This document shows, piece by piece, positions 21,510 through 59,849 of a stretch of DNA of 64,000 bases. A program made the position numbers and the translations under genes. The stretch covers positions 79,880 through 143,879 of the forward strand of contig PBNE01000008.1 in NCBI GenBank assembly GCA_002722885.1, given 5' to 3'. The stretch is from Rhodospirillaceae bacterium. Its GTDB lineage: Bacteria > Pseudomonadota > Alphaproteobacteria > SP197. Positions within the stretch are counted from its first letter, which is position 1. The number at the start of each line of letters is the position of its first letter. The notes under the pieces were generated by a model that was not told the origin of the DNA, did no database searches, and was given only the letters and a program-made list of their open reading frames with translations.

Positions 21510-21557
21510 CTTCGCACTTGCGAGATGAGTATTGGACCGCGCCCGCCGCGTCGTCAA
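21510..21557 (-). promoter_or_regulatory. scpA promoter with TTCGCA-N2-TGCGA operator
   Basis: On the minus strand TTGACG (21557-21552) and AATACT (21533-21528) are 18 bp apart. Immediately downstream, TCGCA-CT-TGCGA (21512-21523) forms a perfect 5-2-5 dyad over the likely start site. The same dyad type occurs at the etfB and phaA promoters. The -35 element overlaps the stop codon of the frameshifted TPR gene upstream. Confidence 0.55.
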
Positions 21558-21941
21558 TCCAGCACGATCTCCACATCGCGTGGCGCACCGTCTTCTCCGT
21601 TGATCGTATAGACGTCATCAGGATAGGCGGAGAAGGCCATCAGGCAATCCATCAGCGCTTCAGCCTCGACGTAGTCACCCGGCTTCGATTTCGGTCCCCA
21701 AAAGCCCTTCGGGGCCCTCAATCTCAGCAGCCGTTAGATAGAGTTCACAGGCCTTCTGGGTTTTCTCATAGGTGCCCTGGCCCATGGCGTACATTTCGCC
21801 CAGCGGTAGGGCCGCACGCACATCGCCCTGTTTTAGTGCAGCTTCAAAGGCCGCCAGGGCGAGGTCGTAGTCGGCAAGGGACGGTGTTGCCACGACCAGA
21901 CAACTCAGCAAAGCAACCCATGACACAACGCGACCGGCCAT
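21554..21941 (-). pseudogene. Small exported TPR/Sel1-like gene with a frameshift
   Basis: The ATG at 21941 (with GGGGGA upstream) starts a signal peptide (MAGRVVSWVALLSC to PSLAD) and a Sel1/TPR-like stretch (FEAALKQGDVRAALPLGEMYAMGQG, read in two halves). After EIEGPEG the frame ends early at 21675. In the neighbouring frame the sequence continues sensibly as FWGPKSKPGDY, EAEALMDCLMAFSAYP and GAPRDVEIVLD to a stop at 21554-21556. One extra base in the GGGCTTTTGGGG region (about 21696-21708) explains this. The intact product would be about 128 residues and periplasmic. Confidence 0.7.
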
Positions 21942-22007
21942 CACCGGTTCATCCCCCGCTCCGTGGCCGTCAGGATGACGCCCGGTGCGGGTCGACGCAA
22001 GGACGAG

Positions 22008-22502
22008 TCAGAACGAGTCGTAAGCCGCGGTAAACCCGGTGAGTGACAGCGGAAGCTGGGCAGGCTGGCCGAAGGTGTCAACGACCGTGACCACGCCCTG
22101 ATTGCCACCCTTGAGAGAGGCAACGACATCTGCGGTCATATCGACCTGTGTCATGCAGCCATCGGCAAAACAGGTGAGATACCCGACCGTTCCCATATCG
22201 ACCTGATCGATTGCCAGGTTGAGTCCATTGGGAAGGAGCACGCCGAGTGGAACCGTCAGTCTCAGAAGCGGATCTTCACCGGGCGGTTTGGCAACCACAG
22301 CCGACATCACCCGCTCGAGACTGCTCTGCATGTTGACCGCCTGGAACATGAAGCATTCTTCGGCGCCGGACGGGCCGATGCCGCAATGGACTTCCCAATC
22401 GCCATGGGTTTCCCGCAGGGTCTGCGAGGGATCCTGCGCCCACAGTGGGCGAGCGGTGAACACCGCAAGGCCAAGACAACAAAGGAACACTACAAAACGC
22501 AT
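22008..22502 (-). CDS. Invasion-associated locus B (IalB)-family exported protein
   Basis: The 164-residue protein from the ATG at 22502 (GGGAG 9 nt upstream) has a signal peptide (MRFVVFLCCLG to PLWAQ). It carries the family features HGDWEVHC, ECFMFQAV, LRLTVPLGVLLPNGL and the late cysteine pair in YLTCFADGCMTQV, which probably forms a disulfide. IalB-type proteins are widespread periplasmic proteins in alphaproteobacteria; the name comes from Bartonella and does not imply pathogenicity here. Confidence 0.9.
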   Translation of the reverse strand: MRFVVFLCCLGLAVFTARPLWAQDPSQTLRETHGDWEVHCGIGPSGAEECFMFQAVNMQSSLERVMSAVVAKPPGEDPLLRLTVPLGVLLPNGLNLAIDQVDMGTVGYLTCFADGCMTQVDMTADVVASLKGGNQGVVTVVDTFGQPAQLPLSLTGFTAAYDSF

Positions 22503-22689
22503 CGAGGCACTCCCAGGCCGGATCAACGGCTCGGCGAACCCCCTCATGGGGCCACTGCGATGGCAAAAGTGTGTCACGCCGAGACGGCAACCGACAACGC
22601 CATCGGGCGGTCGATACCCTGTTCCCGGCCAAAACGCCATGATAGGTTCGCTGGCTGCCTTACACCGCGATTCTTCGAAGGGGTCCACC

Positions 22690-24027
22690 ATGGACGACAA
22701 TTCCTACAACTATCCCGATCGGCCCAACGATCTCGAATCCTTCTGGATGCCGTTCACCACGAACAAGGGCTTCAAGCAGGCCCCGCGCCTGCTTTCAAGC
22801 GCCAAGGACATGCACTACCAGACCCCCGACGGACGCCAAATTCTAGATGGCACGGCCGGCCTGTGGTGCTGCAACGCGGGCCACGGCAGGGAGAAGATTG
22901 CCGAAGCCATCAAGGACCAGGCCGACCGCATGGATTTCGCGCCGACCTTCAACATGGGGCACCCCGCAGCATTTGAGTTTGCCAACCGGCTGGTCGAAAT
23001 AATGCCGGGCAATCTGGACCATGTGTTCTTCACCAATTCCGGTTCGGAATCGGCCGACACGGCCCTGAAGATCGCACTGGGTTACCACTACGTTCGGGGT
23101 AAGGGATCCAAGACACGCCTGATCGGGCGCGAGCGCGGTTACCACGGCACTAATTTCGGCGGCACGTCGGTCGGCGGCATCGTCAAGAACCGGCAGTTCT
23201 ATGGCGGCCTGATTTCGGGCGTGGACCACATCCGTCACACCCACGATATCGAACACAACGCGTTTTCGAAGGGACAGCCCGAATGGGGCGCCCACCTGGC
23301 CGACGATCTTGAGCGTCTGGTGCAGCTCCACGACGCTTCAACCATTGCCGCTGTGATCGTTGAACCAGTCGCTGGATCGACTGGCGTGCTGGTTCCGCCC
23401 AAGGGTTACCTGCAGCGCCTGCGCGAGATATGCGACAAGCACGACATCCTGCTCATATTTGATGAGGTCATCACCGGCTTCGGCCGACTGGGTTCGAGCT
23501 TTGCGGTCGAGCATTTCGGTGTCGAGCCCGATATCGTGACCACAGCCAAGGGCCTGACCAATGCTGCCGTGCCCATGGGCGCAGTCTTCACGCAGAAGAA
23601 GATTTACGACGCCTTCATGGACAACACAGCCGCAGGCATCGAACTCTTCCATGGTTACACCTATTCGGGCCACCCGCTGGCCGCTGTGGCAGGCATTGCG
23701 ACGCTCGACATCTACAAGGAAGAGGGCCTGTTCGAACGGGCAGCCGAGCTTTCGAGCTATTGGGAAGACGGCCTGTGGTCGCTGAAGGGCGGCGATCATG
23801 TCATCGACCTGCGCAATCTCGGCATCATCGCCGGGATCGAGCTGGAACCCCGTCCCGGCGTGCCGACAGCACGCGCCATGGAGGCCTTCCACAAGTGCTT
23901 CGACGAGGGCCTTCTGGTCCGCGTGACCGGCGACATCATTGCACTGTCGCCGCCGCTGATCGTGGAGAAGACACATATTGATCAGATCTTCGACACCATC
24001 GGCAGCGTCCTCAAGACCGTCGACTGA
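22690..24027 (+). CDS. Class III omega-aminotransferase (beta-alanine/omega-amino acid:pyruvate type)
   Basis: This PLP enzyme has 445 residues from the ATG at 22690, which follows AAGGGG by about 8 nt. It shows the class III motifs LESFWMPFT near the N-terminus, GTAGLWCCNAGHG, TNSGSESADTALK, the Asp in IFDEVITGFGR and the PLP lysine in TTAKGLTNA. This set is typical of omega-amino acid:pyruvate transaminases. It is divergent from the IalB-like gene and followed 8 bp after its stop by a strong hairpin. The exact amine donor is not determinable. Confidence 0.93.
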   Translation: MDDNSYNYPDRPNDLESFWMPFTTNKGFKQAPRLLSSAKDMHYQTPDGRQILDGTAGLWCCNAGHGREKIAEAIKDQADRMDFAPTFNMGHPAAFEFANRLVEIMPGNLDHVFFTNSGSESADTALKIALGYHYVRGKGSKTRLIGRERGYHGTNFGGTSVGGIVKNRQFYGGLISGVDHIRHTHDIEHNAFSKGQPEWGAHLADDLERLVQLHDASTIAAVIVEPVAGSTGVLVPPKGYLQRLREICDKHDILLIFDEVITGFGRLGSSFAVEHFGVEPDIVTTAKGLTNAAVPMGAVFTQKKIYDAFMDNTAAGIELFHGYTYSGHPLAAVAGIATLDIYKEEGLFERAAELSSYWEDGLWSLKGGDHVIDLRNLGIIAGIELEPRPGVPTARAMEAFHKCFDEGLLVRVTGDIIALSPPLIVEKTHIDQIFDTIGSVLKTVD

Positions 24028-24461
24028 TTGAGCCGGTACCGGGTTTCCAACGAAACCCGGTACCAGGCAGGCCGGTGGCCGCCAAACCAGCGCCGAGCGC
24101 TGCAGCACAGAACAGCAGGGTCAACCATTCGCTGGGTGCGAACGGCAGCAGCACAGCCATGACGGCAAGATAGCTGCCTTGGCACGCCAGCATGCTCAGG
24201 AGCCAGTCCGCGTTGCGGCAGGCCGCAGCCATGTAGCCGATGGCACAGGCCGCGATCGCGGGCATCGCATAAAACGTGCCCAACGCAGCTTCCGATTCGA
24301 AGGCAGGGCCGAACACCAGGGCAAAAAAACGAGATGGGGTCGGAGTTGACCGGCATGCCGGCCATCCAGCCACCGGCCGCCGCACCCCATCAGCGCGAGG
24401 CCCAACCCGCGATGCCGATGACGAGCGGCGTCGCGACAAGCTTGAAGAAAAAGAGACCCAA
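24011..24461 (-). pseudogene. Decayed integral membrane protein gene
   Basis: Reading from a possible TTG at 24461, just past the phaR stop, the frame gives LGLFFFKLVATPLVIGIAG, then WASR, TGA at 24390-24392, then WGAAAGGWMAGMPVNSDPISFF. A run of seven T's (complement of 24323-24329) then shifts the frame, and the protein continues as ALVFGPAFESEAALGTFYAMP with further hydrophobic segments to a stop at 24011. The phrase around SGWxxGxPxxSGPxxFFLALE is familiar from a family of small multi-pass membrane proteins (from memory). Two separate lesions, one nonsense and one homopolymer frameshift, argue that the gene is dead. No good start codon remains. Confidence 0.65.
24035..24064 (+). terminator. 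12-bp stem hairpin after the aminotransferase gene
   Basis: GGTACCGGGTTT (24035-24046) pairs perfectly with AAACCCGGTACC (24053-24064) around a 6-nt loop, starting 8 bp after the aminotransferase stop. There is no following T-run on the plus strand, but it is the strongest hairpin I found in the window and sits where a terminator is expected. Because it is symmetric, it could also act on the decayed gene from the other strand. Confidence 0.6.
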
Positions 24462-24469
24462 GGCCGGTG

Positions 24470-25090
24470 TCAGCGACCCTTGGCGATGGCGTCCAACTGT
24501 TTCTGCAGCGCGTCGATCTGTCCCTTCAGGGCATCGAGATCGCCGCGACTGGCGCCATCGTCACCGTCGGATGCGCCATTCGGCTTGCCACTGCCGTTCC
24601 CGTCGGGGGCCGGCGGCTGCCACATCTCCATGGCACGCTGGAACATCGCCATGTTGTTCTTGACCATGTCCTCAACGGCCGCACCATTGTCCTGCCCCGG
24701 GAAGGGGAACATCTGGCCGAAAGTCTTCGACATGTTGTCGCGCATTTGCTCCTGATTGCGCGCCAGGTTCTCCATGCTCATCTCGAGATAACGCGGCACG
24801 AAGTTCTGCAGGCTGTCGCCGTAGAACCCGATGAGCTGGCGCAGGAAGCTGATCGGCAGAAGGTTGGCACCCCTGGCCTCTTGCTCGACGATGATCTGCG
24901 TCAGAACCGAGCGGGTGATGTCGTCACCGGACTTGGCGTCATAGACAGCGAACTCCACGCCTTCTTTCACCATTTCGGCAAGGTGATCGAGCGTGACGTA
25001 GCTGCTCGTCGCCGTGTTGTAGAGACGACGGTTCGCGTACTTCTTGATGACGACGGTATCGTCGTCCTGCTTGTCGTTCTTGCGTGCCAT
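24470..25090 (-). CDS. phaR: Polyhydroxyalkanoate synthesis repressor
   Basis: The 206-residue protein from the ATG at 25090 has the PHB accumulation regulator DNA-binding domain (KKYANRRLYNTATSSYV, residues 16-32), two PHB-binding repeats, and a Gly/Asp-rich C-terminal linker ending in a coiled coil (LDALKGQIDALQKQLDAI). PhaR binds both PHB granules and promoter DNA, releasing phasin or synthase genes when polymer appears. It is divergent from the PhaE-like/PhaC-like pair across 135 bp that contain repeated TGCATTGCG motifs, its likely targets. Confidence 0.96.
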   Translation of the reverse strand: MARKNDKQDDDTVVIKKYANRRLYNTATSSYVTLDHLAEMVKEGVEFAVYDAKSGDDITRSVLTQIIVEQEARGANLLPISFLRQLIGFYGDSLQNFVPRYLEMSMENLARNQEQMRDNMSKTFGQMFPFPGQDNGAAVEDMVKNNMAMFQRAMEMWQPPAPDGNGSGKPNGASDGDDGASRGDLDALKGQIDALQKQLDAIAKGR

Positions 25091-25132
25091 TCCGGCCCAC
25101 TCCGCAGCATGATTGGCTGCTATTATGACGCC

Positions 25133-25189
25133 AATGCTGCATTGCGAACAGAGTTTGTTGCATTGCGGTATTTTGTTTGGATCGCAATG
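25133..25189. promoter_or_regulatory. Probable PhaR operators between phaR and the PhaE-like gene
   Basis: TGCATTGCG occurs at 25138-25146 and again at 25159-25167, 21 bp apart, that is, two helical turns. The first copy overlaps a perfect dyad AATGC-T-GCATT (25133-25143), and an inverted partial copy CGCAATG lies at 25183-25189. The TGC-N3-GC core resembles sites reported for alphaproteobacterial PhaR. The repeats lie directly between the divergent starts. Confidence 0.5.
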
Positions 25190-25225
25190 GGCACAACGCG
25201 TGCCGAACCCGCTATAGTACATACC
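25190..25225 (+). promoter_or_regulatory. Promoter for the PhaE-like gene, possibly giving a leaderless mRNA
   Basis: TATAGT (25213-25218) is a good -10 element and ends 7 bp before the ATG at 25226. Transcription would then begin at or next to the start codon. The hexamer 17 bp upstream (25190-25195, GGCACA) is a weak -35 and abuts the last TGC/GCA motif, which suits a regulated promoter. Confidence 0.45.
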
Positions 25226-25561
25226 ATGACAGCCAACGATGACCTGGAAAAACTCGCCAAGGATTTTATTGATCTCTGGCAGGATCATCTGGCGCAAGAG
25301 GCGGCCGATCCGGCGTTGGCGCGCTGGGCACAGACTTGGATTGCGGCCATGCCGACGGGAGGGACCAGCCATGACACAACGGATGGGACCTCGCCCGCTT
25401 CCACTGCATCTGGCGACGTCGGCCAGCGTCTTGATGAGTTCGCTCGCCGCCTTGCCGTCTGCGAAGAGCGGCTTGATAAGCTGGAACGCAAACGCAAACC
25501 GACCAACCAGCGCAAGCGAGGCGGACCGGATCCAGACGGCGATCGCAGCGGCCGACGCTGA
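25226..25561 (+). CDS. Short PhaE-like protein, possible partner of the adjacent PhaC-like enzyme
   Basis: This 111-residue protein starts MTANDDLEKLAKDFIDLW, continues with WAQTWIAAM, a Ser/Thr/Gly linker and a C-terminal coiled coil (VGQRLDEFARRL and EERLDKLERK), then a basic tail. The arrangement resembles a miniature PhaE, the helper subunit of class III PHA synthases, or a phasin. It has no catalytic motif. Its 3' end overlaps the PhaC-like gene in another frame, and it is divergent from phaR. The PhaE assignment is inference from context and coiled-coil character. Confidence 0.7.
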   Translation: MTANDDLEKLAKDFIDLWQDHLAQEAADPALARWAQTWIAAMPTGGTSHDTTDGTSPASTASGDVGQRLDEFARRLAVCEERLDKLERKRKPTNQRKRGGPDPDGDRSGRR

Positions 25562-26588
25562 AGTCCTGACGGCTGCCGTTGCAAGCGAGGCCACGACGCG
25601 TCTGGCTGACTTCGTCGCCGGCATCCGCGCCTACCGCGACCACCCCTATGTCCGACCCCGTCCGGAGGCAGCGACCCTCTGGCAGGACGGCTCCTCCAGC
25701 CTGCTCGACTACGGTGGAGACGGGCGGCTCGTGCTGCTCACACCCTCGCTGATCAACCGCTCGACGATCCTCGATCTGCTGCCCGGCGCCAGTTTCTGCG
25801 CCTGGCTCAAAGCGAACGGCCACCGCCCCCTCCTGCTCGATTGGGGTCCCCCCGGCGACGAAGAGCTGGAATTCAATCTCGACGCCTACATCACAACTCG
25901 GCTGGGTCCGGCGCTCAATGCCGCCTCGGCGCTCGCCGATGGACCGGTGCCGTTGATCGGCTATTGCATGGGCGGACTGCTGGCCCTGGCGGCCGCCCTG
26001 CGGCAACCCAGCGATGTCAGCGGCCTCGCACTTCTGGCAACGCCCTGGGATTTCCACGCGGAACGGGCCAGCCGGACAGGCATCCTCGCCACCGCAGCGG
26101 CCCCACCCTCAGGTCCCGGCACGCCACCCCTGCCCGTCGATCTGATCCAGGCCCTTTTCACCTTCCTGCAGCCCAACCTGCTCCAGGCCAAGTTTCGCCG
26201 CTTTGCCACTATGGATCCTGCCAGCCCCGACGCCGAGGCCTTTGTCGCTCTCGAGGACTGGCTCAACGACGGCGTGGAACTCGCGGCCCCGGCCGCCCGT
26301 GACTGCCTGATCGGCTGGTACCGCGACAACACACCCGGCAAAGGCGGCTGGTGCGTGGCAGGTGAACCGATCAACCCCTCAAGGCTGACCTGCCCAGCCT
26401 TTGTCGCCCTACCGACCCGCGACCGCATCGTGCCTCCCGCCTCCGCCAGCGCTCTGGCCGATTCCCTGCCCGGTCCCACCGTGATCGAACCTCGCGCAGG
26501 CCACATCGGCATGATGGTTGGCAGCCGCGCTGAAATGGACCTGTGGGTGCCGTTAGGCGATTGGTTGACCGGGTTGCACCGCGGCTAA
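25434..26588 (+). CDS. PhaC-like alpha/beta hydrolase with a cysteine lipase box
   Basis: The protein has GYCMGG (Cys codon at 25965-25967), TRDRIVPP and GHIGMMVG, that is, a Cys-Asp-His triad in the order seen in PHA synthases; the GxCxGG box is their hallmark, while depolymerases and esterases have Ser. At about 385 residues it is close to class III PhaC in size. The start is uncertain: ATG 25434 is used here, but TTG 25473 (after GAAGAG) fits the family N-terminus better, and ATG 25371 has the strongest ribosome site (GGGAGG). All options overlap the PhaE-like gene. Confidence 0.8.
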   Translation: MSSLAALPSAKSGLISWNANANRPTSASEADRIQTAIAAADAEVLTAAVASEATTRLADFVAGIRAYRDHPYVRPRPEAATLWQDGSSSLLDYGGDGRLVLLTPSLINRSTILDLLPGASFCAWLKANGHRPLLLDWGPPGDEELEFNLDAYITTRLGPALNAASALADGPVPLIGYCMGGLLALAAALRQPSDVSGLALLATPWDFHAERASRTGILATAAAPPSGPGTPPLPVDLIQALFTFLQPNLLQAKFRRFATMDPASPDAEAFVALEDWLNDGVELAAPAARDCLIGWYRDNTPGKGGWCVAGEPINPSRLTCPAFVALPTRDRIVPPASASALADSLPGPTVIEPRAGHIGMMVGSRAEMDLWVPLGDWLTGLHRG

Positions 26589-26591
26589 GCC

Positions 26592-26647
26592 TTCGCACTT
26601 GCACAAGAAATTTTGCACCAGCGAAATAGAGATTCGTGCCCTATATT
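26592..26647 (+). promoter_or_regulatory. phaA promoter region with two TTCGCA/TGCGAA-type sites
   Basis: TATATT (26642-26647) is a good -10 element 39 bp before the phaA ATG. Upstream, 26592-26603 reads TTCGCACTTGCA, which shares CTTCGCACTTGC exactly with the scpA dyad, and 26611-26626 reads TTTTGCA-CC-AGCGAAA, a near copy of the etfB dyad TTTCGCA-N2-TGCGAAA. The second site covers the -35 region, as expected for a repressor. Confidence 0.5.
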
Positions 26648-26686
26648 TGAATGCAACAGATTCACGCTCGATCAGGAGAGATCACC

Positions 26687-27859
26687 ATGACCGATATCGT
26701 CATTGCCCGTGCCGCGCGGACGCCAGTGGGTTCGTTCAGTGGCGGGCTTTCGAGCCTGGCTGCCCATGACCTGGGCGCGATCGCCATCACCGGTGCCATC
26801 GAACGTGCCGGAATCCAGCCTGGCGATGTCGATGAGGTCATCATGGGTCAGATTCTGCAGGCCGGCGAAGGCCAGAATCCGGCCCGGCAGGCCTCAATCG
26901 GCGCGGGCATTCCGGTCGAAAGCCCGGCCTGGAGCCTGAACCAGCTTTGCGGCTCCGGCCTTCGTGCGGTCGCCGTGGGCGCGCAGCAGATCAGCCAGGG
27001 CGATGCCTCTGTCGTGGTCGCCGGCGGCCAGGAAAGCATGAGCCAAGCGCCGCACTGCGTGCACATGCGCAACGGCACCAAGATGGGCCCGGCCGAGATG
27101 GTCGACACCATGATCAAAGACGGCCTGTGGGACGCTTTCAACGGCTATCACATGGGCAACACTGCCGAGAACGTAGCCAAGCAGTGGCAGATCACCCGCG
27201 AGGATCAGGACAACTTCGCCGTGACCAGCCAGAACCGCGCCGAAGCGGCCCAGAAGGCCGGCAAGTTCAAGGACGAGATTGTCCCGGTCACGATCAAGAC
27301 CCGCAAGGGTGAAACAGTCGTCGAAGACGACGAGTATATTCGCCACGGTGTCGAGTACGACTCGCTCGCCAAGCTGCGCCCGGCCTTCGAGAAGGGCGGC
27401 ACGGTCACGGCCGGCAACGCCAGTGGAATCAACGACGGCGCTGCGGCCGTGGTCCTGATGACGTCCGACGAAGCCGCCAAGCGCGGCATAACGCCAATGG
27501 CGCGGATCGTGAGCTGGGCGCACGCCGGCGTCGATCCCGCGATCATGGGCTCGGGCCCGATCCCGGCGAGCCGCAAGGCGCTGAAAAAGGCCGGCTGGTC
27601 GATCGACGACCTCGACCTCGTGGAGGCCAACGAGGCCTTCGCTGCGCAGGCTTGTGCCGTCAACAAGGACCTCGGCCTTGATCCGGAGAAGGTCAACGTC
27701 AATGGCGGCGCCATTGCCATCGGCCATCCGATCGGTGCCTCGGGCGCCCGTGTGCTCAACACCCTGCTGTTCGAGATGCAGAAGCGCGATGCCAAGAAGG
27801 GCCTCGCCACGCTCTGCATCGGCGGCGGCATGGGTGTCGCCATGTGCGTGGAGCGTTAA
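26687..27859 (+). CDS. phaA: Acetyl-CoA acetyltransferase (beta-ketothiolase)
   Basis: This biosynthetic thiolase joins two acetyl-CoA to acetoacetyl-CoA, the first step to PHB. The 390-residue protein from the ATG at 26687 (AGGAG upstream) has the acyl-accepting Cys in [10 protein letters not shown] near residue 88, the [11 protein letters not shown] loop, His in [10 protein letters not shown] and the second Cys in LCIGGGMG. Full length and intact. phaB lies 1.5 kb downstream, separated by a transporter gene. Confidence 0.96.
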
Positions 27860-27968
27860 GCCTCACATCAAGGTTGTCCACCGCCTGAGCGGTTCGGGCG
27901 GCCACAGACATGGAGTGTAGGGTTAAGCTACCGGGACATTCCGTTCCGCCGCCAACCCCGGAGCACCC

Positions 27969-29189: not shown

Positions 29190-29241
29190 AAGCAGCAAAA
29201 CTGGCCCCAAAGCTGTCGAAATCGTGACTCCAGATGCGAAA

Positions 29242-29261
29242 TTTGAGCGAAATCGCTCAAA
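29242..29261 (+). promoter_or_regulatory. Perfect 9-bp dyad upstream of phaB
   Basis: TTTGAGCGA (29242-29250) and TCGCTCAAA (29253-29261) form a perfect inverted repeat with a 2-bp centre, 102 bp upstream of the phaB ATG. TGCGAAA lies next to it (29235-29241), a half-site of the dyad seen at phaA and etfB. This is a likely operator; a hairpin role is less likely because a gene follows. Confidence 0.5.
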
Positions 29262-29362
29262 CCGTCTGGACTCGTTCAGGGCAAATCTCTACATGCCTCT
29301 CACAGGCTGTCCCGAGGGAGCAGCCTGCCATTTCTCCCAACGTTCAGACCGGAGTTTCGACC

Positions 29363-30085: not shown

Positions 30086-30124
30086 GTCTTGCCAAGGCGC
30101 TCGGGTTCAGGTCACCTGCGCGCC

Positions 30125-31270: not shown

Positions 31271-31349
31271 TCCGTCGCAGGTGGCGCCGGACGGTCTGTC
31301 AGGCGCCGGCCAGTGCCGTAACCGGCAGGGAACAACGAGGGGAGACATC

Positions 31350-31615: not shown

Positions 31616-31633
31616 ATCGAATCGCGAAAGGCC

Positions 31634-47112: not shown

Positions 47113-47131
47113 CGGTCATAAACTCCGTGAG

Positions 47132-49555: not shown

Positions 49556-49594
49556 GGCAGGGCTCCTTGAACCCGGCTAGGTTTGACCGGACTG

Positions 49595-50869: not shown

Positions 50870-50988
50870 TAGTTTCGCGCCCCCTCTTCATCGTCCCCAT
50901 CGTCGCCCGGAGGCTTGAGAGGACCCTTTCGGCCACAGGCCGACAGGGCGGCGGCCAGCGCCAGCATCACTAAAACACGACGGGTCAT
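50866..50988 (-). CDS. lptM: Small LptM/YifL-type lipoprotein
   Basis: The 40-residue product begins [22 protein letters not shown]: a lipoprotein signal peptide with lipobox LSAC, lipidated Cys18, then the family phrase [10 protein letters not shown] and an acidic tail. LptM is an outer-membrane lipoprotein linked to LPS transport (LptD assembly) in E. coli. Its place between argH and lysA is the normal one in proteobacteria. It overlaps argH (ATGA) and lysA (TTGA) by 4 bp each. Confidence 0.9.
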
Positions 50989-52394: not shown

Positions 52395-52504
52395 AGCGCG
52401 CGGCTTAGAACAGGTTGCGCCCGGATGGAAGTCATTCGAGGCCGCGACAAGATCCAACAAGAGCGCTAAAGAGAGACTTTCCCGCCCGAATTAACGGTCT
52501 CACG

Positions 52505-53746
52505 GTGACAACAGACAGCCAGAACAGCGTCCCGCAGGGCCTGCTTTTCGTGTTCGGACGCGTCTTCGTGCCCTTCGCGCTGGGCTACTTCCTGTCTTAC
52601 ATGTACCGCACGGTCAACGCCGTCCTGGGGCCGATCCTGGGCACGGAACTGGGCATCGACGCGGTGGCGATCGGCCTGCTGACCGGCGCCTACTTCTTTG
52701 CTTTTGCCGCTGTCCAGATTCCTCTCGGCATGGCGCTCGACAAGTTCGGCCCGCGCAGAACGCAGACCGTTCTACTTGCCGTCGCGGCGGCAGGAGCGTT
52801 TCTGTTCAGCCAGGGTGACAGCACGCTGGAGCTGGCCATGGCCCGCGCCCTGATCGGCGTAGGTGTGTCCGGCTGCCTGCTGGCCTCGTTCAAAATCTTC
52901 GCCCTTTGGATGCCCAAGCAGAAGCTCCCGCTGGTCAACGGCCTGCTGCTGGCCTGCGGCGGCGCAGGCGTGATGGCCTCATCGTCGCCAGTGCAGGCGG
53001 CGGTCGAGCTGATGGGCTGGCGTCATCTCTTTCACATCATCGCCCTGGCGACTCTTGTCGTGGCAGTGATCATCTTTGTTATCGTGCCGGAACGCCGCGC
53101 CACCGGCGAACCGAACAACCTGGCGGATCAGATCCGTGGTCTCACCGAGATTTTCCGCTCGCGCATCTTCTGGTCGGTCGCGCCGCTGGTGATGACGGCA
53201 CAGGCCGCGTGGATGTCGACCCAGGCGCTGTGGTTCGGGCCATGGCTCCGCGACATGGCCGGGCTCGACGCCGATGCGGCTGCCACGACCCTCTTCATCG
53301 GCGGCATCGGTATGGTGCTGGGTTACGCATCATTGGGATGGCTGACAGAACGATTGAGCCGCATCGGGATTTCCGTCGGCCTTGTCGCCGGGATCGCCAC
53401 AGCCATCTTCATCGGGGTTCAACTGTTACTGGCGTTCAACGCAGCTCTGCCAGCCTGGGTTCTGACAGCGGCCTTTGCCTATACCGGGGGCGCACCAACA
53501 ATCTTCTATGCCAGTCTGACCCAGAAATTCCCTGTGGCCATGGCCGGACGTGTCAACACATCCCTGGCGCTCTTCACCTTCAGCCTTGCCGGGCTGTTGC
53601 AACTGGCCATGGGCGCCATGCTGGACTTCTTCCCGGCCACGGCCGGAGGATACACCGAAACCGGCTATCTCATCGCCTTCGGTGGCTGGGCCACGTTTCA
53701 GATTATCTGTTTCGGCTGGTTTCTGCTGGCTCGACGACAGACCTGA
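52505..53746 (+). CDS. MFS transporter
   Basis: The 413-residue protein from GTG 52505 has twelve predicted membrane segments. It carries GYFLSYMYRTVNAVL in helix 1, LGMALDKFGPRRTQTVL (MFS motif A between helices 2 and 3) and a symmetrical second half with GWLTERLSRIG. It is divergent from argH and convergent with the ornithine cyclodeaminase-family gene, with no gap between stops. The substrate is unknown. Confidence 0.92.
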   Translation: MTTDSQNSVPQGLLFVFGRVFVPFALGYFLSYMYRTVNAVLGPILGTELGIDAVAIGLLTGAYFFAFAAVQIPLGMALDKFGPRRTQTVLLAVAAAGAFLFSQGDSTLELAMARALIGVGVSGCLLASFKIFALWMPKQKLPLVNGLLLACGGAGVMASSSPVQAAVELMGWRHLFHIIALATLVVAVIIFVIVPERRATGEPNNLADQIRGLTEIFRSRIFWSVAPLVMTAQAAWMSTQALWFGPWLRDMAGLDADAAATTLFIGGIGMVLGYASLGWLTERLSRIGISVGLVAGIATAIFIGVQLLLAFNAALPAWVLTAAFAYTGGAPTIFYASLTQKFPVAMAGRVNTSLALFTFSLAGLLQLAMGAMLDFFPATAGGYTETGYLIAFGGWATFQIICFGWFLLARRQT

Positions 53747-54712
53747 TCAGCGGTCCAGCCGTTGACCGACACCCTGCTCGACCGCCTTGGTGTAGCAGAG
53801 CGCGGCAAGGGCAAGATCGCCCATGGCCAGTCCACGAAACGCGAAGACAGTCCGCTCCTCATCGTTCAGGCGGTCGGGTTGTGCTCCCGTGGCAAGATCG
53901 GTGAGGTCACCGGTGATCAAGTTCTGCGGCACCATAGGGTCGGCCATTGAACGTTCCTGCTCGGCATCGTCGATGAAGATACGATCCATACGCGCGATAC
54001 TGTCGGCATGCCACGGGCGCGTCAGATCGGTCATGGCGGTAAAGCTGCCAGACGACATCAGGTCGGCACTGACAAAGGACTCCTTAAGTGTGGTATGCGG
54101 CACTGACGAGACGATCAGGTCGGCACCACGAATGGCGTCTTCAGGTTCAGTGCAGCCTTCGGCCTCCAGTCCCATCTCGCGCGCCAACGCCACCAGCTTG
54201 TCACGGTTCGCCGCACCACGGCCAAGGGCGCGAATGCGCTTGAGTGGGAAAATCTGGCTGAACGCCTCGAGATGGCAGCGGGCCTGCAGGCCACACCCGA
54301 GGAACGCCAGCGTCTCGGCATCCTTGCGCCCCAGGTGATGCGCCGCCGTTGCCGACAGGCCGGCCGTACGCACACCGGTGATCCAGTCCGCATCCATGAT
54401 GCCCAGAGGCAGACCGCTTTCGCTGTCGAACACGGTGATCAGGGCGCCGATGGTTTCCAGACCCTGCTGCGGATTGGCAGGATTCATGCCGAGGGATTTC
54501 ACCGCCATCAGGGGCGGCTCGCTGGCCGTGGCCAGCATTGACATGTGGAGCTTTGCGTCACCGGGAAGAATCTGGGCTTTGGGTGTGTTCCAGGCCCGAC
54601 CCTCTGCCCCCTGGCTTAACAGGCTCTCGATCATGCCGATGATGTTGGCCGTCGTGATACCCAGCGAACGAACATCCTGGCGGCGCAGGTAGAGAAGGCT
54701 CTCGTCGGTCAT
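53747..54712 (-). CDS. Ornithine cyclodeaminase/mu-crystallin-family protein
   Basis: The 321-residue NAD(P)-binding protein has KAQILPGDAKLHMSML, the Lys in MAVKSLG, ITGVRTAGLSATAAHHL and the Rossmann motif LAFLGCGLQARCHLEAF, followed by DLIVSSVPHTTL. Members include ornithine cyclodeaminases, ketimine reductases and alanine dehydrogenases, so the substrate is open. It is divergent from the patatin gene. Confidence 0.92.
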   Translation of the reverse strand: MTDESLLYLRRQDVRSLGITTANIIGMIESLLSQGAEGRAWNTPKAQILPGDAKLHMSMLATASEPPLMAVKSLGMNPANPQQGLETIGALITVFDSESGLPLGIMDADWITGVRTAGLSATAAHHLGRKDAETLAFLGCGLQARCHLEAFSQIFPLKRIRALGRGAANRDKLVALAREMGLEAEGCTEPEDAIRGADLIVSSVPHTTLKESFVSADLMSSGSFTAMTDLTRPWHADSIARMDRIFIDDAEQERSMADPMVPQNLITGDLTDLATGAQPDRLNDEERTVFAFRGLAMGDLALAALCYTKAVEQGVGQRLDR

Positions 54713-54829
54713 GGTGTGATCCCGTGCTTTGCGTGGCGATTCTGGTATCGGTCCCTTGTGGCAGGCACACTATCGCCAGACAACAATGTTGTCGTTCCGT
54801 CGTTGCCAACCGAGGAGAAAGGCCCTTTC

Positions 54830-55801
54830 ATGGGCACATCCAGACCGTCAAGCTTTCGTATCAGGCTGGGAGGGCGCGTGCTTTCCGCGAGCCTTGTCGC
54901 CATACTCACGATGGACTGTACCGCCCTGCCGCGAGACACGGAACGGGTCGCCCTCGATGACGTCAGTACGATCCCAGGCCTGGAGACGGTTCGGGGTGCT
55001 CCCTCACCTCTCGGCGGCACCATACGGGACAACTTCGATGCATCGTTTGCACAGGAGAGCGCGGCCGGCACCTACCCGCCCGACGCCAACAGCACCGTTC
55101 ATTGCGCAAGTCTCGTGCTCTCGGGCGGCGCCGACTATGGCGCCTTCGGTGTCGGTGTTCTGGCCGGCTGGACTGAAACAGGCACCCGACCCGAATTCAA
55201 GGTGGTCACGGGCGTCAGCACCGGTGCGATGATCGCATCGGTGGCCGTCCTGGGTCCTGTGTATGAAGAGGCCCTTCAGGAATCCTTCACCACCATCGAT
55301 CAGGACGATTTTCTGACGCTGCGCGGCATCTTCGACATCATTCTGGGCACCGACGCTGTTGCCGACAGCAGGCCACTGCAACGCCCCATTGCCGCGATCT
55401 ATGACATGAAGGTCATGCAGCGCGTAGCCGAAGAGCACAACCGCGGCCGTCACCTCTACATCCTGACAACGAACATCGACACGGAAGTTCCCATCCTCTG
55501 GAGCCTGGGTGCCCTGGCCAACGTCGGCACACGGGAAGCTCTTGATCTGAGCCGCAAGATCATCACGGCGTCAGTCTCACCGCCGGGAGTCTTCCCTCCG
55601 GTCCTCATCGACGCTGTAGTCAACGGTGAGCTATACCAGGAAATGCATGCCGACAGTGGCGTGGTGACCAGCATGATGTCCACTGGCGGGATCATAGACT
55701 TTACCGACACCGCACAAAGGCTGACCAGTGTCGAAGCAGCAGCCCATGACGTTCATCTGATCCGCAATGGCTTCGTCACGCCACGCCCACGTGTCGTTTA
55801 A
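54830..55801 (+). CDS. Patatin-like phospholipase lipoprotein, C-terminus probably lost
   Basis: The product has 323 residues from the ATG at 54830, with a lipoprotein-type leader (SASLVAILTMDCTAL). The patatin domain is complete in its core: oxyanion loop LSGGADYGAFGVGVL, nucleophile Ser in GVSTGAMIAS, and the Asp of the dyad probably in MHADSGV (DSG rather than the usual DGG). TAA at 55799-55801 ends it at FVTPRPRVV, but family-like sequence continues beyond the stop (see 55802-56061). The truncated form may still be active because the catalytic dyad is retained. Confidence 0.85.
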   Translation: MGTSRPSSFRIRLGGRVLSASLVAILTMDCTALPRDTERVALDDVSTIPGLETVRGAPSPLGGTIRDNFDASFAQESAAGTYPPDANSTVHCASLVLSGGADYGAFGVGVLAGWTETGTRPEFKVVTGVSTGAMIASVAVLGPVYEEALQESFTTIDQDDFLTLRGIFDIILGTDAVADSRPLQRPIAAIYDMKVMQRVAEEHNRGRHLYILTTNIDTEVPILWSLGALANVGTREALDLSRKIITASVSPPGVFPPVLIDAVVNGELYQEMHADSGVVTSMMSTGGIIDFTDTAQRLTSVEAAAHDVHLIRNGFVTPRPRVV

Positions 55802-56061
55802 CGCAATCTTCCGACATCATCGGTGCGTCGACCCAGACCATGCTCAAATGGGCAGGCACCTTCGACACCGTTCGCATCTGCCTTATCCATGATGCCCGCG
55901 GCGATGACGTCTACCAGCTCAACATTCCGCCCGACTTTGAGCTGGCGACCGAAGACTACTTCGACAAGCAGGTCATGAACGACCTATTTACCGTGGGGCA
56001 CCTGTTGGGTTCCGATCCCAGGTCCTGGCAGACCAAACCGCCACAGCTCAAGGGATTTTGA
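55802..56061 (+). pseudogene. Orphaned C-terminal segment of the patatin gene
   Basis: Directly after the TAA the same frame gives RNLP, then a one-base loss near 55812 moves the good reading to the next frame: DIIGASTQTMLKWAGTFDTVR, ICLIHDARGDDVYQLNIPP, DFELATEDYFDKQVMNDLF, to TGA at 56059-56061. This reads as the missing tail of the upstream patatin (about 86 residues). Two independent lesions, one stop and one deletion, separate it from the catalytic part. The ATG at 55840 could start a 73-residue fragment, but I see no ribosome site. Confidence 0.7.
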
Positions 56062-56113
56062 GGCTCTCAGCAAGCCAACCGGAGCAGTCCAGACAACAAT
56101 CCCATGGGAAGAG

Positions 56114-57055
56114 TTAAGGTTGCGCCCAGGCACCGAACGGTTTTATCACGACGAGACCGCCACGGCTCAGATCGGCTTCATCCAGGTTACTGAGACCGTT
56201 GCCGTTGATCAGGCCGCTCAGTTCATCGACATAAGCTTGGCCACGTTCCGAATAGGCCGTCAGAGTCGCGGCCAGCTCCAAGCCGCTGACGGTCTGGCCA
56301 GCCTCGCGCAACCCACCACGCCGATCACGCAATCCCGAATAGGCCGCATGGCTGTTGAGATTGAGCATATAGGCGGCCACGGAATACAACGTAGTCGGGA
56401 ACGATTTGATCCGGTAGTCGCCGAGTTCACCGCGCTGCTCCGACGGCACCATGCCGTCGTCTTCCCAGGTCCACTGACCGAACAGGGCATTGGCTTCGGT
56501 GGCAAAGCGCGACGTACCCCAGCCGCTTTCGATCGCGGCCTGGGCAAGCACTAGCGATGCCGGAATGACATCGACCAGGCGTTTGAGCCTCGCGATCTCA
56601 TCGGGTCCAATCTCGGCATTTTCAGAACTGATCACCTTTTAGCGGAGCGCCAGTTCGGACAACCAACGTGCGTCACGTGTGCCAAGGTCCTGAGGATCTC
56701 TCAATGACAGGAGCCGTTCACGATCTTCGATGATCGTCTCATTGGCGCGCAGTGCCAGCGGCGCCATCGCCATCAGGAAGAGCGTCTTCTTTGTCTCCAC
56801 ATCAATCTCATCGCTCCAGCCCTCCGGCCAGTGCGTCAGGCCCATGCGCGGAACGACAGGGTAGATTTCTGCCCATGCGTCGCGGCTGTAGCCCAGTTCG
56901 TCGAAGACCATCATGGTCTCGGCGGCCGAAGAGACCGGAATGACCTCCCTTTGCAGGGCTGCAAAGCGTCCCAACATCAGCCCCAGCAGAGCGAGGCCGA
57001 CAAACAGCACGGCGACAATGATGATGCCGCGTCGTCTGGGCGATGGAGATGTCAT
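56114..57055 (-). pseudogene. Bax-like glucosaminidase-domain gene interrupted by an in-frame TAA
   Basis: The ATG at 57055 starts a membrane anchor (RRRGIIIVAVLFVGLALLGL) and the Bax N-terminal part (VPRMGLTHWPEGW, KKTLFLMAMAPLALRANE, DARWLSELALR). TAA at 56639-56641 interrupts, and the same frame resumes with KVISSENAEIGPDEIARLKRL, VDVIPASLVLAQAAIESGWG and NALFGQW, the glucosaminidase domain with catalytic Glu in AIESGWG. Relatives have LAERYGV at this point, so the stop probably replaces Tyr. An intact protein would be about 313 residues. The catalytic half has no signal of its own. Confidence 0.85.
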
Positions 57056-57097
57056 GGACAAAGTATGCCCGCCCTCTGAAACGGCGAGAACCCGGGC

Positions 57098-57973
57098 CTA
57101 GCGCGTCGGAACCGGTTCGTCGCCGGTGTAGTCATAGAAGCCCTTGCCGGACTTGCGGCCCAGCCAGCCAGCTTCGACATATTTGGCCAGCAGTGGGCAC
57201 GGCCGGTACTTCGTATCAGCCAGACCGTCGTAGAGCACCTGCATGACCGAGTAGCAGACATCGAGGCCGATAAAGTCCGCCAGCTCAAGCGGACCCATGG
57301 GATGGTTCGCACCAAGCTTCATGGCGGTATCGATCGACTCCACGGTGCCGACACCCTCGTAGAGGGCATAGACCGCTTCGTTGATCATCGGCAGCAGGAT
57401 GCGGTTCACGATGAAGGCCGGGAAATCCTCGGCGTTCGCCGGAACCTTCTCCAGCGTCAGCGTGAGATCGCGAATCGTACCGAAGGTCTCCGCATCGGTC
57501 GCCAGGCCGCGGATGAGCTCCACCAGTCTCATGACCGGGACGGGGTTCATGAAGTGCATGCCCATGAACTTCTCGGGCCGGTCGGTCGCCGCGGCTAGGC
57601 GGGTGATCGGGATCGACGAGGTGTTCGAGCAGATGATCGCTTCGGGCTTCAGCGTTTCGGTGAGCTGCGTGAAGATTTCCTTCTTCACAGCTTCATTCTC
57701 GGTTGCCGCCTCGATCACGCAATCGCACTGGGCGAGATCGGCAAACCCGTCGACCACACTGATCCGGGCAAGGCCCGCCGTCTTGTCGTCTTCGGCGATC
57801 AGACCACGGCGGACCTGACGGTCCATGTTACCATCGATGGTCTTGAGCGCATGATCGGCACGGGAACGGTCAGCATCGACCAGAGCGACGTCGTAGCCGG
57901 CCAGCGCGCAGACGTGGGCAATGCCCGAGCCCATCGCACCTGCACCGATCACGCCAATGCTCTTGATCTCCAT
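57098..57973 (-). CDS. 3-hydroxybutyryl-CoA dehydrogenase
   Basis: The 291-residue NAD enzyme has the Rossmann motif VIGAGAMGSGIAHV (residues 8-21), DCVIEAATEN, CSNTSSIPIT, the catalytic His in GMHFMNPVPVM and a C-terminal dimer domain (DFPAFIVNRILLPM, GANHPMGPLELADFIG). It oxidises (S)-3-hydroxybutyryl-CoA to acetoacetyl-CoA (Hbd/PaaH type). It lies downstream of etfB-etfA on the same strand, so beta-oxidation electrons and substrate are handled by neighbours. Confidence 0.94.
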   Translation of the reverse strand: MEIKSIGVIGAGAMGSGIAHVCALAGYDVALVDADRSRADHALKTIDGNMDRQVRRGLIAEDDKTAGLARISVVDGFADLAQCDCVIEAATENEAVKKEIFTQLTETLKPEAIICSNTSSIPITRLAAATDRPEKFMGMHFMNPVPVMRLVELIRGLATDAETFGTIRDLTLTLEKVPANAEDFPAFIVNRILLPMINEAVYALYEGVGTVESIDTAMKLGANHPMGPLELADFIGLDVCYSVMQVLYDGLADTKYRPCPLLAKYVEAGWLGRKSGKGFYDYTGDEPVPTR

Positions 57974-58037
57974 CGACTGTCCTTTCGTGCGAGAACCGCG
58001 AGTGGCCTTCAGGGCCGGGCGCTGTGTTGCTCGCTTA

Positions 58038-58988
58038 TCATGCCTGGACACCCTGGCTCTGCAATTCGCCCTTTAGTTCCGGCACGGCCTGGAAGAGGTC
58101 CGCGACGAGGCCAAAATCGGCAACCTGGAAGATCGGGGCTTCCTCATCCTTGTTGATGCAGGCGATGACCTTGCTGTCCTTCATGCCCGCCAGATGCTGA
58201 ATCGCGCCGGAAATTCCGACGGCGATGTACAACTCGGGCGCAACGACCTTACCGGTCTGGCCGACCTGGTAGTCGTTCGGGACATAACCGGCATCGACCG
58301 CCGCGCGGCTCGCGCCCACGGCAGCACCCAGGATGTCGGCGACTTCCTCAAGCATCGAGAAGTTGTCACCCGACTGCATGCCGCGGCCGCCGGAGATCAC
58401 GACACGGGCCGTGGTCAGTTCCGGGCGCTCGTTGTCGGACAGGGCCGCGCCTTCGAAGCTCGAAAGACCGGCATCGGACGCACCACCGACAGTCTCGACC
58501 GCCGCCGAGCCGCCTTCCTCGGCCGCAGCCTCGAACGAGGTGGTGCGGACGGTGACCAGCTTCACGGCATCGGTCGACTGCACGGTCGCCATGGCGTTGC
58601 CGGCATAGATCGGACGCACGAAAGTGTCTTCAGAGACGACCTCGGTGATATCGGAGACCTGCTGCGTGTCGAGCAGCGCGGCAGCCCGGGGCATGATGTT
58701 TTTGCCCGTGGTCGTGGCCGCGGCCACGACGTGGCTGTAGCCCGACGCCATGCCCGCGATCAGCGGCGTGACATTTTCGGCGAGCTGGGCTTTCAACGCG
58801 GCGTCATCGGCCACCAGAACCTTGGAGACACCGGCCACCTTGGCAGCCGCTTCACCCACGGCACCACAGCCTTCGCCGGCCACGAGGACGGTGATGTCAC
58901 CACCCATTTGGCTAGCGGCTGTAACCGCGTTCAGGGTAGCCGAGGACAGAGCCTCGTTGTCATGATCGGCATAAACGAGAATAGCCAT
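58038..58988 (-). CDS. etfA: Electron transfer flavoprotein, alpha subunit
   Basis: The 316-residue subunit has the N-terminal domain (MAILVYADHDNEALS) and the FAD-binding C-terminal domain: RVVISGGRGMQSGDNF, GASRAAVDAGYVPNDYQVGQ, TGKVVAPELYIAVGISGAIQ and INKDEEAPIFQVADFGLV. ETF passes electrons from acyl-CoA dehydrogenases to ETF-ubiquinone oxidoreductase. It starts one base after the etfB stop. Confidence 0.97.
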   Translation of the reverse strand: MAILVYADHDNEALSSATLNAVTAASQMGGDITVLVAGEGCGAVGEAAAKVAGVSKVLVADDAALKAQLAENVTPLIAGMASGYSHVVAAATTTGKNIMPRAAALLDTQQVSDITEVVSEDTFVRPIYAGNAMATVQSTDAVKLVTVRTTSFEAAAEEGGSAAVETVGGASDAGLSSFEGAALSDNERPELTTARVVISGGRGMQSGDNFSMLEEVADILGAAVGASRAAVDAGYVPNDYQVGQTGKVVAPELYIAVGISGAIQHLAGMKDSKVIACINKDEEAPIFQVADFGLVADLFQAVPELKGELQSQGVQA

Positions 58989-58989
58989 C

Positions 58990-59739
58990 TCAGATCACTC
59001 CCGCATCGTTGTGCAGCTTGTCGACGAGTTCGGACACCGAGCCGACCTTGATACCGCCCTGACGCTTCGGCGGCTCCTCGACCTTGATGGTGTTCAGGCG
59101 CGGTGTCGTGTCGACACCGAGATCGGTCGGAGTCTTCTTGGCGATCTCTTTCTTGCGCGCCTTCATAATGTTCGGCAACGAGGCGTACCGCGGCTCGTTC
59201 AGGCGCAGGTCGACCGTCAGTATCGACGGCATCTTGAGTGCCACGGTCTCAAGGCCACCATCAACCTCGCGGGTGACCTTCATGCCGCCATCGGCAACTT
59301 CGACCTTCGAGACGAAGGTGCCCTGAGACCAGCCCAACAGACCCGACAGCATCTGGCCGGTCTGGTTGGCGTCGTCATCGATCGCCTGCTTGCCGAGGAA
59401 CACGATGTCGGGGCTTTCTTCCTCGACCACCTTGGCCAGCATCTTGGCGACGGCCAGAGGTTCGAGTTCACCGTCGTGCACCACGTGAATGGCACGGTCC
59501 GCACCCATGGCGAGCGCGGTACGGAGCGTTTCCTGGCTCTGCTCGGGGCCCATCGAGATCGCAACGACCTCTTCAGCGGTTCCGGCTTCCTTCATACGCA
59601 CGGCCTCTTCGACCGCAATCTCGTCGAAGGGATTCATCGACATCTTCACATTCGCGAGGTCGACACCGCTCTGGTCCGCCTTGACGCGCACCTTCACGTT
59701 GTAGTCGATCACCCGCTTGACCGGGACGAGAACCTTCAT
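58990..59739 (-). CDS. etfB: Electron transfer flavoprotein, beta subunit
   Basis: The 249-residue subunit begins [19 protein letters not shown] and has [36 protein letters not shown] and the signature [22 protein letters not shown]. It pairs with EtfA and binds AMP. The ATG at 59739 is the family start. A promoter with an overlapping dyad lies at 59806-59849. Confidence 0.97.
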
Positions 59740-59805
59740 CGCATCCGTCTCCAAGCGACTGGTTTCATAGAAAAGATCGGAAGATGAACGGTCGGAAACC
59801 GCTCA

Positions 59806-59849
59806 TTTCGCAGGTGCGAAAACTAGGGCCCCGCCTCGGCACCTGTCAA
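59806..59849 (-). promoter_or_regulatory. etfB promoter with TTTCGCA-N2-TGCGAAA operator
   Basis: On the minus strand a consensus TTGACA (59849-59844) is followed after 18 bp by TAGTTT (59825-59820). A perfect 7-2-7 dyad TTTCGCA-CC-TGCGAAA (read on the minus strand, 59821-59806) overlaps the last bases of the -10 and covers the start site. This is the geometry of a repressor site, and the dyad matches those at scpA and phaA. Confidence 0.6.

Follow-up and report, generated by a model that had tools for sequence, protein, structure and literature searches.

A conserved 22-bp dyad upstream of etfB, scpA and phaA as a candidate shared operator of acyl-CoA genes in a Rhodospirillaceae bacterium

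Results

Genes, promoters and dyads of the three operons

The window, i.e., the whole stretch of 64,000 nucleotides analysed here, was searched for protein domains by scanning 64 of the 66 retained open reading frames against Pfam. Three of its operons are considered. The gene etfB on the minus strand (58990–59754; PF01012) codes for the electron transfer flavoprotein beta subunit and is followed by etfA (58038–58988; PF01012, PF00766) and by hbd, coding for a 3-hydroxyacyl-CoA dehydrogenase (57098–58051; PF02737, PF00725). The methylmalonyl-CoA mutase gene scpA, also on the minus strand (19353–21506; PF01642, PF02310), is followed by meaB (18386–19444; PF03308). On the plus strand phaA (26651–27859; PF00108, PF02803) codes for an acetyl-CoA acetyltransferase (thiolase). 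Judged from the sequence, the true start codons of scpA and phaA are probably the ATGs at 21488 and 26687.

Upstream of each of the three genes lies a dyad with the full form TCATTTCGCA-N2-TGCGAAATGA, comprising 22 bp. At etfB it spans 59803–59824 on the minus strand and scores 33.0 with our position weight matrix (PWM); its core (59806–59821) reads TTTCGCAGGTGCGAAA and is a perfect dyad. The scpA dyad (21507–21528, minus strand, score 28.0) includes TTCGCACTTGCGA at 21511–21523. Two elements precede phaA on the plus strand, namely dyad B at 26608–26629 (score 21.3), with TTTTGCACCAGCGAAA at 26611–26626, and a half-matching box A (CTTCGCACTTGCACAA, 26591–26606), with TTCGCACTTGCA at 26592–26603. 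All four strings named in the preliminary description were thereby confirmed. The 12 bases that it reported as common to scpA (21510–21521) and phaA (26591–26602), CTTCGCACTTGC, are real as well, although the copies are oppositely oriented with respect to their genes, scpA being on the minus strand.

Promoter boxes were read by eye and their positions rechecked. For etfB a sigma-70-type promoter is inferred at 59821–59849 on the minus strand (TTGACA at 59844–59849, 17 bp spacing, CTAGTT at 59821–59826), and TTGACA is also present in the etfB upstream regions of the family. The putative scpA promoter occupies 21528–21557 on the minus strand (TTGACG at 21552–21557, 18 bp spacing, AATACT at 21528–21533); boxes resembling it were found in family upstream regions. 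For phaA the presumed –10 box is TATATT at 26642–26647 on the plus strand. With these putative boxes the earlier observation that the etfB and scpA dyads sit just after the –10 box holds: both begin at this box, and the etfB dyad overlaps its end together with the expected transcription start. At phaA, dyad B lies over the presumed –35 zone.

Frequency of the motif in the window and in its genome

Allowing up to two mismatches, the window contains seven matches versus 3.92 expected (sd 1.67). As seven is only marginally beyond the shuffled windows, 5 of 100 of which reached this number, the evidence from the window alone is weak. The whole genome (3.71 Mb) contains one perfect site, with about 0.15 expected per genome at its own composition, and six sites with one mismatch; a control with the reversed pattern gave two. 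The motif is therefore rare elsewhere in this genome, as it is in the family.

Conservation of the dyad at orthologous genes of the family

According to the preliminary description a common regulon should be checked by looking for the motif at the orthologues of relatives. Of 16 genomes of the GTDB family of the window, 12 carry the dyad upstream of etfB; the corresponding counts are 9 of 14 for scpA and 9 of 15 for phaA. These sites cover all five genera of the family for etfB, four for scpA and three for phaA. A site was counted as strong when its PWM score exceeded 15. The scpA genes of G003 and G008 (fragments lacking the 5′ end) and phaA of G008 (no orthologue, best identity 49%) are not part of the counts. 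The scpA and phaA sites of G013 were scored separately and then added; with these set apart, strong sites were present in 12/16, 8/13 and 8/14 cases, and none of these 28 scores was reached by any of 300 shuffles each. The first scoring used a PWM trained with a site from locus L145 that was later removed as false, and the later scripts used 26 sites.

Because the PWM was built from these same sites, an exact-pattern count served as an independent check. Perfect TTCGCANNTGCGAA sites occur 15 times in the 16 genomes, and 14 of them lie at etfB, scpA or phaA (reversed control, 1). In the etfB leader of the 12 genomes the dyad core varies hardly or not at all, while the remaining leader diverges; at scpA the strong sites in 9 of the 14 orthologues occupy one and the same position. 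The three genes thus share a closely similar 22-bp sequence within the family. Both the conservation at orthologues and the concentration of the perfect sites support the proposal made earlier, that one operator is shared by these acyl-CoA genes.

The dyad is not retained throughout. In a clade of four genomes (G006, G009, G010, G011) strong sites are missing at both etfB and phaA, and the scpA site is weakened (score 11.6). G005 has no strong site at scpA and phaA, and G015 none at phaA.

A search for weaker sites (up to three mismatches, 12 genomes) revealed fadBA as a fourth target in three genomes, with scores of 22.9 (G012), 22.9 (G013) and 15.5 (G008); FadB and acyl-CoA dehydrogenase were confirmed by Pfam in G012 alone. 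Weak matches at the start of rpmB (window position 18248), near the beginning of a hydrolase-like gene (L333, L334) and at gyrA in G001 were dismissed as coding or single.

The dyad elsewhere in the Alphaproteobacteria

Outside the family the surroundings of 41 of 44 sites were read, the other three being among the four sites of G126. Four of the 41 lie upstream of scpA (two), etfB (one) and phaA (one), with a Poisson estimate of 6e-8. Further sites precede genes for CoA-transferase (two), PHB depolymerase (one) and a short-chain dehydrogenase (one), and the dyad was also found at genes for pyruvate carboxylase, PPDK and pyruvate dehydrogenase E1. Genes of other functions are hfq (four sites), DeoR regulator/glpD (three), tolB-pal (two), gyrA and others without a common theme. 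In family f37 (L233–L235) TTTCGCA-N2-TGCGAAA lies between a DeoR-type regulator gene and a FAD oxidoreductase gene; in L234 this pair is supported by Pfam, and we read the oxidoreductase as glpD. Most etfB genes elsewhere are without the dyad: among etfB upstream regions taken from named records, 1 of 79 had a site with up to two mismatches (80 loci, one without upstream DNA).

Frequent occurrence at unrelated promoters had been named beforehand as evidence against a common regulon. Within the family this was not observed, the motif being rare there, whereas outside it the sites at hfq, tolB-pal and DeoR/glpD do speak in this direction. Given these other functions, we do not claim a single regulator for all sites of the class.

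Which protein could bind the dyad?

The earlier statement that the window holds no matching regulator gene has to be qualified, since the window encodes two regulators that the preliminary description left unmentioned, PhaR and a TetR-family protein; neither is favoured as owner of the dyad.

The gene phaR (24470–25090, minus strand; PF07879, PF05233) is situated between scpA and phaA and codes for a PHB-responsive regulator; its start was set at the ATG at 25090 within the open reading frame 24470–25624. PhaR could recognise the dyad as a variant of its own box with the spacer one base wider, that is YGCR-N2-YGCR for YGCR-N1-YGCR. The available text on Sinorhizobium meliloti PhaR gives the consensus WNWD2NYGCRNYGCRNH2WNW and lists PHB depolymerase, ppdK, pyc and pdh among the targets (PMC12542648). 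Spacer aside, the half-site and the AT-rich arms of the dyad match this consensus, and the class-wide targets of the dyad overlap those listed there. In addition, PF07879 is present in 42 of 43 genomes with the motif versus 189 of 342 others, and box A of phaA, similar in G000 (the genome of the window), G007, G012 and G013 with N2 spacing in these four genomes, reads TGCGCCGCA in G014 with a spacer of one base. For its targets and its co-occurrence PhaR was initially favoured.

The promoters at which PhaR is expected to act argue against this assignment. The 14 family phasin loci counted carry 34 N1 boxes and 2 N2 boxes; L319, where the domain start is misplaced, and the divergent L321, L322 and L324 were left out of this count. 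With the dyad PWM the phasin upstream regions of 18 loci, including L319 with its misplaced start, scored at most 0.6 (L323 and L325 entered neither analysis), and the family phaR promoters were low as well. PhaR has a conserved operator of its own kind, TGCA-N1-TGCA: in the window the phaR promoter has TGCATTGCG boxes at 25138–25146 and 25159–25167, and the four family phaR promoters that were read contain N1 boxes only. Upstream of phaR at 30 loci throughout the class N1 alone is clearly enriched (32 versus 4.9 in shuffles), N2 with 8 being comparable to N0 and N3–N6 (6–8). Moreover, N1 phasin boxes persist in three members of the four-genome clade that lacks the dyads at etfB and phaA (L316–L318; L319 uncounted). 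The co-occurrence is weakened because it is confounded with genome size: p is 2e-9 overall, but 0.055 for genomes of at least 2.5 Mb and 0.073 below, with size-class counts made by hand. The phaR gene is present, but the strong sites at etfB, scpA and phaA have a two-base spacer instead of YGCR-N1-YGCR. Judged by the promoters of phasin genes and of phaR, PhaR was largely rejected as owner of the dyad; its binding to a widened box is an unlikely, minor rival reading.

The three operons could also be served by at least two unrelated regulators whose dyads resemble each other, and the dyad at DeoR/FAD oxidoreductase, hfq and tolB-pal in other families suggests that the string may belong to several systems. 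Considering how closely the 22 bp agree at the three family genes, and that one clade has lost or weakened the site at all three, we regard this as improbable. Still less probable is that the dyad acts in RNA, as a 5′-terminal hairpin of the messages. TTTCGCACCTGCGAAA could fold with a four-base loop and is near the message start of etfB and scpA, but there transcription is expected to start within the dyad, and at phaA the dyad lies upstream of the presumed –10 box, so that a transcript from this promoter would not include it. The differing place in the promoter, at the start site of etfB and scpA and over the –35 zone of phaA, fits a DNA operator.

The TetR-family regulator (12805–13455, minus strand; PF00440, PF02909) is encoded about 6 kb from scpA and adjoins cobT in G000. 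Its orthologues are at cobT in G007, G004 and G001; the cobT neighbourhoods of G006 and G011, two members of the clade lacking the dyads at etfB and phaA, gave no TetR match. Nevertheless, G015 has the acyl-CoA dyad yet no TetR match beside cobT, the regulator is paired with an amine oxidase gene, and its divergent promoter carries a conserved operator of its own, TTCTACA-N-TGTAGAA, in four of four genomes compared (in the window at 13488–13502, with a second copy at 13469–13483). On account of this different operator the protein was rejected, and its binding to the dyad is highly improbable.

A propionyl-CoA regulator of the ScfR/PccR type, which would act at TTTGCAAA boxes, is scarcely credible, although its function would fit and its half-site is loosely similar: a search for PF09856 gave nothing in G000 and matches in 4 of 16 family genomes (three above the cut-off; the control search was positive in Caulobacter and Corynebacterium), and the dyad is kept in genomes free of it, e.g., G000, G001, G014 and G015. 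The earlier remark that the sites differ from the ScfR/PccR box was correct, since TTTGCAAA-N4-TTTGCAAA was absent from the three window promoters when read by eye; for the suggested kinship of the half-sites the distribution of PF09856 gives no support. This distribution refutes a general role of ScfR/PccR; an XRE regulator that lacks the ScfR domain could still act.

No autoregulated regulator gene was found among 20 stretches read around sites with up to three mismatches in 12 genomes (some weak matches were not fetched), and no regulator is common to the site neighbourhoods across 13 stretches of other families. The regulator binding the dyad was thus not found, the PhaR and TetR of the window having other operators.

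Discussion

A shared operator over the acyl-CoA gene set is well supported by the comparison of genomes, and the three operons are probably under one common regulator protein. We consider it likely that a single dimeric repressor uses the dyad as its operator and thereby controls genes of acyl-CoA metabolism, beta-oxidation and the PHB cycle. In the proposed mechanism a dimeric helix-turn-helix repressor encoded outside the window would bind the dyad, covering the –10 box through the start site at etfB and scpA and the –35 zone at phaA. RNA polymerase would be blocked by this covering of core promoter elements. A metabolite of the pathway, acyl-CoA or acetoacetyl-CoA being the natural guess, would release the repressor, and etfBA-hbd would be switched on for electron transfer from acyl-CoA dehydrogenases, together with scpA-meaB (methylmalonyl-CoA mutase), phaA (thiolase) and, in some species, fadBA. 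In this model we infer the promoter boxes, the start sites, the repression and the use of one protein for all sites.

Several known systems are comparable. Regulators of the ScfR/PccR/RamB/PrpR type control propionyl-CoA and short acyl-CoA metabolism through TTTGCAAA boxes; the metabolism is the same, but the box is another and the genome has no match of the ScfRs family. TetR-type operators such as that of RutR have a 7-N2-7 geometry, and the two 7-bp arms with a 2-bp spacer are alike, but sequence and targets differ, and no TetR protein was linked to the dyad here. PsrA, FadR and LiuR are proteobacterial fatty-acid regulators of etf and beta-oxidation genes with boxes that are not known to resemble TTTCGCA-N2-TGCGAAA. 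The DeoR-type/glpD-like pair of f37 has the same dyad in another pathway and in other bacteria, its binding being assumed from the place of the site. As far as described in the available text for S. meliloti (PMC12542648) and Bradyrhizobium diazoefficiens (PMC6201568, PMC10888616), the PhaR/AniA regulon has the same PHB/acyl-CoA setting, and YGCR half-sites, AT-rich arms and a location over core promoter elements are common to both, but its boxes have a one-base spacer (GC-N3-GC) where the dyad has two bases.

In the open-access literature searched there was no report of the exact motif spellings or of a joint etfB and mutase regulon; among the matches listed there for its half-sites in connection with a regulator, none was relevant by title.

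That these genomes contain a conserved operator distinct from their PhaR box suggests that a regulator is still missing, for which the defined 22-bp DNA is now usable as bait. The one-base difference in spacer also offers a clean test of the spacing stringency of PhaR. PHB storage, propionyl-CoA use and beta-oxidation converge on the genes concerned. More tentatively, but quite possibly, the Alphaproteobacteria may have a second, undescribed regulator of acyl-CoA, acetoacetyl-CoA and PHB metabolism besides PhaR, which would bind TTTCGCA-N2-TGCGAAA. If so, its regulon would have been rewired in each lineage, comprising etf, mutase and thiolase genes here, and CoA-transferase, PHB depolymerase or pyruvate carboxylase genes in other families.

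The dyad in the window and in its own genome

All four copies of the inverted repeat named in the preliminary description were found: a perfect 7-N2-7 dyad upstream of etfB (59806-59821), a copy with one mismatch to TTCGCANNTGCGAA upstream of scpA (21511-21523), and two looser copies, spaced 20 bp and with two mismatches each, upstream of phaA (26592-26603 and 26611-26626). Within the window the dyad count exceeds chance expectation only slightly: 7 sites with up to two mismatches were counted versus 3.92 expected, and 7 was reached in 5 of 100 shuffles. In the 3.71 Mb of the own genome the etfB site is the single perfect one and six sites have one mismatch, scpA among them; the reversed pattern gave two.

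As judged from the sequence, etfB and scpA have a TTGAC-type -35 element plus a -10-like box, and at both genes the dyad would start at the -10 edge and span the expected transcription start. At phaA it appears to lie over the -35 zone, upstream of the presumed TATATT box. Since the position of the dyad in the promoter changes between the genes and its sequence does not, an RNA hairpin fits less well than a protein operator, which would most simply be that of a repressor.

Conservation within the family

The order of the window is represented in the collection by one family, with 16 genomes from five genera. DNA upstream of the orthologues was compared, and sites with a position weight matrix (PWM) score above 15 were considered strong. 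The conservation in relatives that the preliminary description had named as a check was observed for all three genes: strong sites are present at etfB in 12 of 16 genomes (all five genera), at scpA in 8 of 13 orthologues (four genera; 9 of 14 including genome G013) and at phaA in 8 of 14 (three genera; 9 of 15 including G013). The scores of the 28 strong sites of the main table were reached by none of 300 shuffles of each upstream region. As the PWM was trained on those same family sites, the count of the exact pattern serves as an independent check: the 16 genomes contain 15 perfect TTCGCANNTGCGAA sites, 14 of which are situated at etfB, scpA or phaA, and the reversed pattern occurs once. The full dyad consensus is TCATTTCGCA-N2-TGCGAAATGA, and in the etfB leaders of the 12 dyad-bearing genomes it forms a sharply conserved block amid diverging sequence.

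At etfB and phaA, strong sites are absent from four genomes (G006, G009, G010, and G011), whose scpA site is weakened (score 11.6). G005 lacks a strong site at scpA and phaA, G015 at phaA.

In G013:C23 the matches to scpA and phaA are broken into several pieces and contain in-frame TGA codons, perhaps reflecting sequencing errors or decay. By eye, the etfB leaders of several species (alignment A1, columns 20-45) apparently contain a second, sequence-variable inverted repeat right after the dyad, for example ATGAGCC...GGCTCAT in G012.

Allowing up to two mismatches, nearly all family sites are again found at the three genes; the exceptions are a LutB-like operon, the neighbourhood of pal, the region upstream of gyrA and a few isolated positions. 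A scan of 12 genomes that tolerated up to three mismatches added a fourth acyl-CoA target: fadB-fadA, an operon that follows an acyl-CoA dehydrogenase gene, in G012 and G013 and, with a weaker site, in G008 (Pfam assignment for G012 only).

Candidate regulators

We scanned 64 of the 66 retained frames of the window plus two others against Pfam (cut-offs 1e-3 to 1e-8). The only transcription regulators recognised among them were PhaR (24470-25090) and a TetR protein (12805-13455); about a dozen frames had no match. The earlier statement that the window encodes no matching regulator thus has to be modified: two regulators are encoded there, and both show other operators.

PhaR is unlikely to own the dyad. 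Its gene lies between scpA and phaA, its published regulons take in PHB depolymerase, ppdK, pyc, and pdh (PMC12542648), and G014 has an N1-like box at the position of box A, the upstream half-matching box at phaA. However, the published PhaR box, YGCR-N1-YGCR with AT-rich arms (PMC12542648), has a spacer one base narrower than that of the dyad (N2). The family phasin promoters (14 loci) contain 34 N1 boxes versus 2 N2 boxes, and the four phaR promoters read in the family contain N1 boxes only. Upstream of phaR at 30 loci class-wide N1 is enriched (32 versus 4.9 in shuffles), whereas N2 (8 versus 3.8) is no commoner than other spacings. N1 phasin boxes are retained in three of the genomes that lack the dyad at both etfB and phaA. 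Between phaR and phaC (25138-25167) lie two classical PhaR boxes (TGCATTGCG), which have similar counterparts in G007, G001, and G014 and likely serve PhaR autoregulation.

The TetR protein was rejected, its own divergent promoter bearing TTCTACA-N-TGTAGAA in the four genomes compared. In the window two copies, one imperfect, lie between the TetR and amine oxidase genes (13469-13502), with similar copies at the corresponding divergent promoter in G007, G004, and G001; this is likely the operator of the local TetR. ScfR/PccR was dismissed, as PF09856 has no match in the window's genome. No regulator is common to the site neighbourhoods compared.

The dyad across Alphaproteobacteria

With at most one mismatch, TTTCGCANNTGCGAAATGA occurs in 43 of 385 genomes of the class, the reversed control in one. 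Outside the family are 38 of the 43, with 44 sites. Surroundings and reading frames were examined for 41 of these, with many, not all, neighbours scanned against Pfam. Directly downstream are scpA (2), etfB (1, where the adenosyltransferase gene and etfBA-hbd are arranged as in the window), and phaA (1); four matches at these three genes greatly exceed the number expected by chance (Poisson 6e-8 at an assumed 3500 genes per genome). Further downstream genes are CoA-transferase (2), PHB depolymerase (1), short-chain dehydrogenase (1) and, as read, pyruvate carboxylase (1148 aa, from the sequence start), PPDK, and pyruvate dehydrogenase E1.

Four genomes, belonging to two families, carry the dyad directly in front of hfq and after a gene for a HAD hydrolase (L243, L244, and L245 of f135, assigned by N-terminal sequence; L261 of f107, by Pfam). 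In three f37 genomes (L233, L234, and L235; Pfam for L234 only) TTTCGCA-N2-TGCGAAA lies between DeoR-type regulator and FAD oxidoreductase genes, read as glpR-glpD. Other sites are at tolB/pal (2), gyrA, an H+-pyrophosphatase gene, and genes without a common theme. Together these sites count against a single story class-wide. As to the refuting condition of a motif common at unrelated promoters, nearly all strong sites within the family lie at the three genes; outside it, genes of other function carry the dyad as well. Among the named records, just one of 79 etfB upstream regions (80 loci, one without upstream DNA) has a match with two or fewer mismatches; the motif is widespread, yet its use at etfB is rare outside the family.

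In two families the dyad was seen with tolB on one side and a presumed pal, an OmpA-type gene, on the other (L212 in G002; L270 and L271 in f42, the pal of L271 assigned by likeness to L270 alone).

The shared operator proposed earlier is real and conserved among relatives, and the genes that it marks belong to acyl-CoA metabolism. Most likely, a putative dimeric repressor encoded elsewhere would bind the dyad and be released by a pathway metabolite.
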